Below are positions 36,951 through 53,772 of a stretch of DNA of 64,000 nucleotides, piece by piece; positions within the stretch are counted from its first letter, which is position 1, and each line of letters begins with the position of its first letter. A model generated the notes under the pieces. The model saw only the letters and a list, made by a program, of their open reading frames with translations, had not been told where the DNA came from and searched no databases. This stretch comes from Draconibacterium mangrovi (GTDB lineage Bacteria > Bacteroidota > Bacteroidia > Bacteroidales > Prolixibacteraceae), in contig NZ_JAAAGB010000001.1 of the NCBI RefSeq assembly GCF_010586825.1, positions 868,001 to 932,000 of the forward strand, in the 5' to 3' direction. The translations under genes and the position numbers were made by a program.

Positions 36951-37363
36951 TTTATGCCTTATCAGGCAGATTTTACTATTTGGCTTAGCCCAAATAGTAA
37001 ACACAAAACCCAAGGCTGCGCCCACTTCGCTCGGAAAAGCTACGCGATGTCAGCTAAAATTCCTAAAACTCGTCGTCCCTCCTCAAACAGCAGTAATTTT
37101 TTTACGCTGCCACCGCTTGTTTTCCGGCTCACCGGCCGAGGCCGTTCCACTGATGCAGCTGACATTGCATCAGTGGAACGGCCTCTTTTGGTCTTCGCAT
37201 GGAGTTAAAATAAAACCTTAATGAGAGCGGGAAGCTCCGAGTAAGCGAGGAGATCACCCGTCCGAATTTAGGTTTTATGAAAACGGAGAGTGAAGACTAA
37301 AAGCAGCCTTGAACTTTCTGCTTCGTCTTTGCTTCAAGGCAAAGATGAAGGCCCCCGGCAGGG
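36951..37363. repeat. Structured interspersed repeat, copy A (full length)
   Basis: About 410 bp of intergenic, comparatively GC-rich DNA, nearly identical in order to the copy at 53361-53772 and matching the left part of the copy at 43405-43700. Elements in order: hairpin 1, GCCT-TATC-AGGC (36956-36967); hairpin 2, TTTACTATTTGG/CCAAATAGTAAA around CTTAGC (36972-37001); a block around GGCTGCGCCCACTTCGCTCGG; a perfect 20-bp stem with an 8-nt loop (37138-37185); a nested three-stem domain (37210-37278); and a terminal 12-bp stem, CTTCGTCTTTGC/GCAAAGATGAAG (37321-37350), then GGCCCCCGG. No ORF of coding quality crosses it on either strand. Function unknown. Confidence 0.85.
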
Positions 37364-37493
37364 AAAATTTCTGAATTTACAGGTTTTGCAACAAGTTAAA
37401 TCAATCTCATTACAGAATACTACATGCCCAGCAACAACGAATTCTAAATTCAAAGGCATAAAAAAAGGCCTCACAAATTGTGAAGCCTTAAAG

Positions 37494-37566
<73 letters not shown>

Positions 37567-37570
37567 AATT

Positions 37571-37657
37571 TGGTACCCGGGGGGGGACTTGAACCCCCAC
37601 GATCATAATGATCATTGGATTTTAAGTCCAACGTGTCTACCATTCCACCACCCGGGC
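37571..37657 (-). tRNA. tRNA-Leu (TAA anticodon) with encoded CCA
   Basis: 87 nt with the terminal CCA. Acceptor stem GCCCGGG/CCCGGGT with one G-U pair, anticodon arm TTGGA-CTTAAAA-TCCAA giving TAA, and a long variable arm (TGATCATTATGATCG), which marks a class II tRNA. Confidence 0.97.
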
Positions 37658-37679
37658 ATCCTTTGCATTATCGTGAATG

Positions 37680-37752
<73 letters not shown>

Positions 37753-43355: not shown

Positions 43356-43404
43356 GGAATTGAGTTGATAAAATTTCAAGTTCTCAATATTAGTAACCGA
43401 GCAT

Positions 43405-43700
43405 AAGAAATCAGTTTTATGCCTTATCAGGCGGATTCTACTCTTTGGCTTAGCCCAAAGAGTAGACACAAAACCCAAGGCTGCGCCCGCTTCTCTCGGA
43501 AAAGCTACGCGATGCCGTCTAAAATTCCTGAAACGCCCCCCCGAAACTTCGGGGCTCCTCAAACATCAGTAATTTTTTAACGCCGTCACCGCTTGTTTTC
43601 CGTCCGCCAGCTGGCGGACGAGGCCCAGCTTCATTGCAGCTTACAATACAACAGTGAAACGGCCTCTTTTGGCCTTTACGCCATGCGGACTCCTTCTAAT
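43405..43700. repeat. Structured interspersed repeat, copy B (truncated)
   Basis: Matches the first two thirds of copies A and C and stops near GCATGG (about 43684-43690), lacking the nested three-stem domain and the terminal hairpin. Hairpin 1 is as in A. Hairpin 2 is TCTACTCTTTGG/CCAAAGAGTAGA, with two compensated base changes relative to A and C. A 20-bp palindrome CGTCCGCCAGCTGGCGGACG (43601-43620) replaces the CCGGCTCACCGG hairpin found in A and C, and a CCCCGAAACTTCGGGG hairpin is added near 43540. It fills the convergent gap between ricT and the O-methyltransferase gene. Confidence 0.8.
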
Positions 43701-53255: not shown

Positions 53256-53360
53256 AATTTACTTTATAACAATACAGTTAACCTGACACTAAGATTCTTC
53301 ACTTGGCAATCAGTATTATAATCTACCGGACAAATAAAAGCTGTCAACAATAAGAAATAG

Positions 53361-53772
53361 TATTCGCTCTATCGAGCAGATTTTACTATTTGGCTTAGCC
53401 CAAATAGTAAACACAAACCCCTAGGCTGCGCCCACTTCGCTCGGAAAAGCTACGCGATGCCGGCTAAAATTCCTGAAACTCGTCGTACCTCCTCAAACAT
53501 CAGTAATTATATTACGCCGTCATCACTTGTTTTCCGGCTCACCGGCCGAGGCCAGGCTTCGATGCAGCTGACATTGCATCAGTGGAACGGCCTCTTTTGG
53601 TCTTCGCATGGAGTTAAAATAAAACCTTAATGAGAGCGGGAAGCTCCGAGTGAGCGAGGAGATCACCCGTCCGAATTTAGGTTTTATGAAAACGGAGAGT
53701 GAAGATCAAAAGCAGCCTTGACTTTTTTACTTCGTTTTTGTTTCAAAACAAAAATGAAGGCCTCCGGTAGGA
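53361..53772. repeat. Structured interspersed repeat, copy C (full length)
   Basis: Colinear with copy A. Hairpin 1 is GCTC-TATC-GAGC (53366-53377), two pairs changed together relative to A and B. Hairpin 2 is the same as in A. The central stem has the A-type right arm but an older, only partly matching left arm. The nested three-stem domain (about 53618-53686) is almost identical to that of A. The terminal stem is CTTCGTTTTTGT/ACAAAAATGAAG (53730-53759), again with two compensated changes. The repeat lies between the hydroxyacid dehydrogenase and a small membrane protein gene. The remainder to 53992 holds a GCACGA/TCGTGC hairpin near 53938-53964 but no gene. Confidence 0.85.

Follow-up and report, generated by a model that had tools for sequence, protein, structure and literature searches.

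Three copies of a structured element in the window and in its genus

The window, a 64,000-nucleotide stretch of the Draconibacterium mangrovi genome, contains three copies (A, B and C) of an interspersed element. A preliminary description of this DNA had placed them at 36951-37363, 43405-43700 and 53361-53772, and on re-reading the sequence we found these positions to be correct. The stems quoted there were exact to the letter: GCCT/AGGC in hairpin 1 (hp1) of A and B and GCTC/GAGC in that of C, TTTACTATTTGG in hairpin 2 (hp2) of A and C versus TCTACTCTTTGG in B, and the terminal hairpin stems of A and C. The hairpins shared by the three copies, and the paired changes in them, are real. Consistent with its span of 43405-43700, copy B lacks its 3' end. 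Decayed flank sequence, its homology judged by eye, extends further than these spans in B (about 43371-43420) and in C (from about 53321). The following features were assigned.

36951..37363, plus strand: copy A, found by blastn; full core with 5' module, middle hairpin, 3' arm and right hairpins
43371..43676, plus strand: copy B; outer flank remnant, hp1, hp2 and 5' arm, the 3' arm being lost
53321..53772, plus strand: copy C; outer flank remnant and full core
36956..36967, plus strand: hp1 of A; 4-bp stem with a TATC loop (43421-43432 in B, 53366-53377 in C)
36972..37001, plus strand: hp2 of A; 12-bp stem with a 6-nt loop (43437-43466 in B, 53382-53411 in C)
37012..37019, plus strand: closing stem, 5' strand AAGGCTGC; it overlaps the downstream segment that is complementary to the hp2 loop
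37033..37125, plus strand: 5' arm including the apical stem, GGAAAAGC to GCTTGTTTTCC
37067..37089, plus strand: apical loop AACTCGTCGTCCCTCCTCAAACA
37138..37185, plus strand: middle hairpin GAGGCC...GGCCTC, with perfect 20-bp arms in A and variable in other copies
37186..37302, plus strand: 3' arm, TTTTGGTCTTC ... GAAGACTAAAA
37303..37310, plus strand: closing stem, 3' strand GCAGCCTT
37321..37350, plus strand: hp3, the right hairpin of A (53730-53759 in C)

Open reading frames (ORFs) of 84-102 amino acids overlap copy A; such short frames over the element are probably spurious. A tRNA-Gly, tRNA-Leu, tRNA-Gly cluster lies directly downstream of copy A, at 37493-37752 of the window.

To denote sampled genomes and the loci studied we use G and L numbers, G000 being the genome of the window (27 contigs). 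In G000, 19 blastn matches fell at 17 separate places, one of the matches being a reverse match within A and another a fragment adjoining a further copy; some comprised the 5' half or the 3' half alone. When about ten candidates were scored per genome, the family was matched in 29 of 61 sampled genomes, namely its own, 28 of 36 relatives from the same genus and none of 24 genomes from the same order. The 3' module, sought in 198 genomes of the order with four candidates scored per genome, was detected in the own genome, together with one weak 41-base match. Copy A as a query gave zero matches among plasmids and phages. At locus B, presence of the element varies between species: the orthologous locus holds a full-length copy in G005, the same truncation in G002 and an internal remnant in G008, and no recognisable copy was seen at the orthologous place in G006 and G012. 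In G013 the orthologous locus (L385) carries what is, by eye, a different and diverged family member, with hp1 GTCT-TTCC-AGAC and with an hp2 and a right hairpin both its own.

The loop pattern located 79 copies, none of which lay within an ORF of at least 600 nt as judged with a rough ORF caller. The orientations of neighbouring genes relative to the plus strand of the element were (-,-) in 31 cases, (+,-) in 25, (+,+) in 14 and (-,+) in 9, copies within one genome not being independent in these counts. The downstream neighbour faced the element in 56 of the 79 cases, and the plus strand was antisense to 31 of 45 same-direction neighbours; this orientation bias stems in part from avoidance of promoters. 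Among neighbouring cores less than 1 kb apart, 13 pairs were tandem, 7 of 22 tail-to-tail and 2 head-to-head. The tail-to-tail inverted cores, about 190-640 bp apart, have a REPIN-like arrangement (L329, L364, L335, L327, L158, L186 and L308).

Candidate gene partners were sought by clustering the ORFs of 115 loci and considering families present in at least five loci. The clusters were mainly frames over the element itself; one family, with seven ORFs in seven loci, was response-regulator-like. A RAYT-like fragment at L239 was rejected as a partner, the gene being interrupted, by eye, by an insertion. An integron-like cassette array in G298 was also rejected because its gene orientations are mixed.

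Transposon ends shared with an ISAon1-type insertion sequence

The pattern GGATCACN{8,11}GGTGGA was present in 13 of 16 genomes, often as inverted pairs enclosing units that measure 410-680 bp or 1441 bp. Four such pairs in G008 enclose 1441-bp units, and the unit examined codes for the ISAon1 N-terminal protein (NF049916, E 1.9e-41) and the ISAon1 family transposase (NF049917, 3.1e-145; PF01610, 3e-52). This 1441-bp insertion sequence and the core-bearing units of sister species have 24-bp inverted repeats in common. Six core-bearing units with ISAon1-type ends measured 549-576 bp (those of G008, 550-576 bp), and their 8-bp duplications were perfect in four, matched at 7 of 8 positions in L290 and were missing in L285. 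Units of 619-680 bp in G009 have the same ends, with clear 8-bp duplications at three of four loci; L280 and L282 of this genome, printed in full, combine the same ends with another 5' arm and a similar 3' arm. The four 1441-bp units showed no clean duplication at the listed ends. Two further units in G008, L276 (411 bp) and L277 (410 bp), have ISAon1-type ends and no AACTC...CTCAAACA motif, and the interior of L276 is different and palindrome-rich.

We then scanned the flanks of 86 copies, recognising ends by PWM at a threshold of -4.0. Both ends were found in 27 copies, one end in 19 and neither in 40. Among the 27 two-ended copies, which include two pairs that look orthologous, 14 had 8-base flanks matching at six or more positions (seven of them perfectly) against a shuffled expectation of 1.3 (maximum 6 of 1000); the other 13 fell below six. 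Insertion of the IS200/IS605 type, which makes no target duplication, is not the case for Draconibacterium-type units. The 8-bp duplications make transposition testable.

A core unit with a perfect 8-bp duplication splits a gene in D. orientale (L286:515-1063; also L023 and L239). By eye this gene codes for a RAYT/Y1-type transposase, with its parts on either side of the insertion. Another Y1 (IS200-type) gene, with one internal stop, lies amid family copies at L375/L403 (G148:C1:893826-894188) and apparently cuts into one of them.

The copies in the window have no end above threshold: outer inverted repeats were unrecognisable on copy A (-12.4 left, -18.8 right), the left end of copy B scored far below the threshold, and the best left end of copy C (-4.6) was just under it. 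They are placed in the family by core homology only. Of 37 genus genomes, four gave an ISAon1 match over the cut-off, full-length in G008, G032 and G018 and partial in the fourth; the ISAon1 transposase had no match in G000.

The preliminary description had named descent from a known transposon end as grounds against its reading. In this genus the copies are indeed transposon-derived, having 24-bp repeats in common with an ISAon1/ISL3 insertion sequence and 8-bp duplications. This origin leaves the fold of the interior unexplained. The mobility of the element is ordinary in kind: it is a new ISAon1-dependent MITE family, and like MITEs of ISL3-family insertion sequences (ISAon1 type) its members have 24-bp repeats, 8-bp duplications and no internal transposase gene, with the intact insertion sequence in some sister genomes. 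They differ in their interior, which is no deleted insertion sequence; it is a folded module, and relatives of it occur in distant taxa. This novelty of the interior is a variation on the cargo that MITEs are known to carry, and its role is putative.

The folded interior and its relatives in distant Bacteroidota

RNAalifold on 91 full copies returned a single fold, which begins with hp1, the 12-bp hp2 and the closing stem AAGGCTGC/GCAGCCTT around the 5' arm and continues with the middle GAGGCC/GGCCTC hairpin, the 3' arm, the mirror hairpin hp3 and, at the right end, a short hairpin. Its energy was similar on both strands (-205.7 plus, -199.5 minus). The structure exceeds the three hairpins first described by the closing stem and three arms. 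In hp1, alignment columns 6/15 and 8/13 covary. The hp2 loop is complementary to a segment shortly downstream in many relatives, and loop and segment covary (CTTGAT/ATCAAG, CTTGAC/GTCAAG, CTTGAA/TTCAAG, CTTGAG/CTCAAG and GAGCAG/CTGCT). The longest complementary run averaged 4.17 over 121 distinct copies versus 3.57 (sd 0.066; maximum 3.80 of 500), and 4.13 versus 3.53 over 63 distinct hp2 loops; for CTTAGC, a common loop in Draconibacterium, the downstream match is partial (4). Provided that the pairing forms, the hp2 loop and the downstream segment can make an H-type pseudoknot.

Covariation was analyzed in 75 copies of less than 95% identity, using the 116 of 127 pairs that were at least 75% Watson-Crick. 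In the null, columns evolved independently along a FastTree tree, with the number of changes per column kept. Summed covariation over the 116 pairs was 15.9 versus 1.9 expected (sd 0.35; maximum 3.0 of 200), in a test somewhat biased in favour of the structure because this was taken from the tested alignment. Individually, 28 of the 116 pairs reached p<=0.01, and 31 pairs had at least three changes on both sides.

Similarly, 22 apical hairpins from widely separated taxa (one of 23 representatives was dropped for an unpaired-looking stem) had a covariation score of 0.593 versus 0.181 (sd 0.029), which 0 of 500 shuffles reached; the best slid control scored 0.364, and paired cells made up 70.2% versus 43.7%. 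Two of five measures were within the shuffle range, namely pairs changed on both sides (all 11, versus 9.9; reached by 109 of 500 shuffles) and further pair types (28 versus 26.4; 169 of 500). The representatives were picked via the loop pattern, so the conservation of their loops is by construction. The preliminary description had proposed a covariation test on collected and aligned copies; in ours, the paired changes of several helices exceed chance by a wide margin, under the tree-based null as well as among very distant relatives.

The 21-base pattern of the apical loop matched at least 115 stretches in the genome collection. Among the matches listed are Mariniphaga, Maribellus, Tangfeifania, Mangrovibacterium, Flavobacteriia MAGs, Fluviicola and other Crocinitomicaceae, Reichenbachiella, a MAG labelled Chitinophaga pinensis, a Chlorobiota MAG and a MAG labelled Proteobacteria. 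The early guess that other Bacteroidota hold similar fragments was right: the 5' module has relatives in Flavobacteriia, in Crocinitomicaceae, in Reichenbachiella and on Parabacteroides plasmids. The same architecture, consisting of hp2, a loop-complementary segment downstream (in most copies) and the apical stem, was present in ten inspected genomes (G298, G407, G395, G279, G148, G372, G399, G128, G331 and G192). The stems flanking the recurrent loop differ in sequence across taxa yet still pair. The middle of the loop is variable, as AACTC-(mini-hairpin)-CTCAAACA, for example AACTCGCTTCGCTCAAACAG in weak covariance-model matches. TIRs and target duplications are documented within the genus, and outside it the module is known from its core alone; at L164, outside the genus, the ends appear different by eye.

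Distribution across the phylum is patchy, as the exact loop CTCGTCGT (at most two mismatches) was found in the own genome and in 0 of the other 394 among 395 phylum genomes. A covariance model (R1), applied after a lossy first look, matched 6 of the 395 including the own genome. A loose loop pattern matched 57 of the 395, a tally that carries no weight because a reversed control also matches many genomes once; from this pattern only multi-copy or inspected genomes were used as evidence. Three plasmids of Parabacteroides distasonis matched the element at L366, over 62% of the query and at about 76%. Viral contigs gave 0 matches for the CTCGTCGT loop and two sequence matches for a CTTCG loop.

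In L120, L038, L025, L061, L084, L015, L062, L031 and L033, the apical loop and other places are replaced or interrupted by short palindromes (CCCCGAAACTTCGGGG, CCCGAT..ATCGGG and CCTGCC..GGCAGG). These seem to form a class of their own, mobile and very short.

Searches of Rfam 15 at the gathering score with the window and 11 distant loci matched tRNAs only, and five further loci gave nothing at E up to 0.5. The middle hairpin of copy A had weak sub-threshold matches, the best being mir-128 (E 0.0011; 25.1 bits versus 49), which we took as chance. In the open-licence literature we found no description of the module, and nothing relevant on ISAon1, Bacteroidetes MITEs or the loop sequences; PMC6006769 and PMC3733652 treat REP elements.

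RNA, DNA and template switching as possible reasons for the conserved fold

To read the helices by strand, we counted G-T and A-C cells, which represent sequences and not events. In the 3' arm of the 75 copies, 86 cells were G-T versus 7 A-C, with 19 columns favouring G-T and 0 favouring A-C, so this arm behaves like plus-strand RNA. It was absent from the preliminary list of hairpins, and it is the better evidence for a folded RNA. A reverse leaning is seen both in the 5' arm (53 A-C versus 18 G-T; columns 12 to 5, p 0.14) and in the closing stem (27 A-C versus 7 G-T; columns 6 to 2, p 0.29). G-T and A-C cells together amounted to 4 of 900 in hp2 and 5 of 824 in hp3; hp1 had 3 G-T and 7 A-C in 300 cells, matching the rate of the arms. 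Apical stems in 75 distinct copies had 702 Watson-Crick, 6 G-T, 4 A-C and 29 other cells. As a yardstick, which is crude because a different scoring rule favours G-T there, 27 tRNA acceptor stems gave 170 Watson-Crick, 12 G-T, 1 A-C and 6 other. Tolerance of G-U was thus seen in the 3' arm and not in hp2, hp3, the 5' arm or the apical stems. In their cell counts, the hp2, hp3 and apical stems resemble DNA palindromes or the outcome of template switching.

On balance, we favour the reading that A, B and C are old MITE copies, moved in trans by an ISAon1-type ISL3 transposase, in which the internal fold has been kept, most likely as RNA. The transposase would recognise the 24-bp TIRs, GGATCAC(11)GGTGGA, and transposition would make the 8-bp target duplications, ends and duplications both being shown in sister species. 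The folded module inside would consist of hp1, a pseudoknot-capable hp2, an arm with AACTC-(variable middle)-CTCAAACA as its cap and, in this genus, a second arm and the mirror hairpin. Source copies that keep the fold may spread best, or may be best tolerated within host transcripts, and we infer that the module most likely acts as a folded RNA, most clearly in its 3' arm, that offers the loop to a putative host or transposition factor. Several observations sit uneasily with this reading. The apical stems are almost purely Watson-Crick, as in DNA, and the 5' arm and closing stem lean to A-C; 40 of 86 copies have neither TIR, and L285 and the four IS units have no clean duplication; an ISAon1 match over the cut-off was found in only 4 of 37 genus genomes and not in the own genome, the ends of A, B and C being decayed; and in some copies a short palindrome takes the place of part of the apical loop.

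A broader proposal is more tentative. The copies may belong to phylum-wide selfish structured RNAs, bacterial-SINE-like and marked by a pseudoknot and an AACUC/CUCAAACA two-strand loop, in which an ancient RNA module would have been carried by different transposon ends in different lineages (ISAon1 in Draconibacterium and relatives) and would be bound by a conserved cellular partner. Drift is the expectation for the interior of a MITE. In this family, a part of it is found again in distant relatives, where the same loop caps very different stems that still pair. If this loop is recognised by something, a factor conserved in Bacteroidota is to be expected, which could be sought directly with the alignment and the covariance model.

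The fold could instead be kept at the DNA level, as extruded or single-stranded hairpins of the kind used by HUH/Y1 enzymes, serving propagation with no RNA involved. We regard this as possible but improbable. The near-perfect Watson-Crick pairing of hp2, hp3 and the apical stems, with no G-U preference, speaks for it, as do the tail-to-tail inverted pairs and the Y1 transposase genes that we found in 35 of 37 genus genomes. Furthermore, PMC6006769 describes Bacteroidetes TnpA-REP genes flanked by "atypical secondary structures" with copies elsewhere. Against a DNA-level fold stands the strong strand polarity of the 3' arm. The loop motif, sought as a sequence motif only, was found in the flanks of 0 of 30 genus Y1 loci and 1 of 24 others, where a Y1 gene with an internal stop sits between copies, so that copies do not generally flank a TnpA-REP (Y1) gene; a genus Y1 locus (L256) had a weak match, 38-39 bases long, with the right-hand portion of the core (E 2e-4). 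When Y1 genes were sought in ten non-genus genomes, G298 had no match despite ten copies in the stretches read. The 8-bp duplications of the genus units are also unlike HUH transposition. Compared with REP/BIME/REPIN elements and their TnpA-REP (RAYT) genes, including Bacteroidetes subclass 2.6 in PMC6006769, the family is likewise palindromic and sometimes in inverted pairs, but its core measures about 200-410 nt, its genus members show target duplications and its loop motif is generally unlinked to Y1 genes; the structures reported in that paper were set beside ours by description.

Covariation would also arise in the absence of selection if the two arms of a short hairpin served as templates for one another (template switching, or quasi-palindrome correction), each change being copied across the stem. 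As an account of the whole fold we consider this mechanism unlikely. In its favour is the near lack of one-sided intermediates in hp2 and hp3 noted above, for example at columns 374/391, which read CG in 31 copies, TA in 36, AT in 8 and unpaired in 0. This bears on the preliminary claim that six covarying pairs reveal a selected structure: their covariation is real, and selection is unproven for these six, since four of them lie in hp2/hp3, where template switching could explain them. The remaining two sit in hp1, where intermediates (10 of 300) are as frequent as in the long arms, contrary to this mechanism. It hardly explains the covariation of the long arms (columns 268/314, 253/329 and 83/173), the polarity of the 3' arm, the complementarity between the hp2 loop and the downstream segment, or stems that are unrelated yet pair around the loop across taxa. 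That the family is an ordinary dead MITE, its fold merely inherited from one master copy and without a role, is very improbable, for although copies are patchy, many are cut to one half and 0 of 79 lie within an ORF of at least 600 nt, the covariation is far above the tree-based null, extends across distant taxa, and accompanies an identical architecture with unrelated stems in them.

Enterobacterial and streptococcal elements such as ERIC, BOX and RUP are intergenic, MITE-like, hairpin-rich and present in many copies. Compared by description, the family here resembles them in all four respects, but differs in its predicted pseudoknot, in an apical loop that recurs on different stems in distant taxa, and in its two modules. 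In G395, tandem units of about 300 bp (L360 and L361) contain, besides the core, a second interspersed repeat, GTCATCCTGACG...GAAGTGGAGTGGAGAAATCT.
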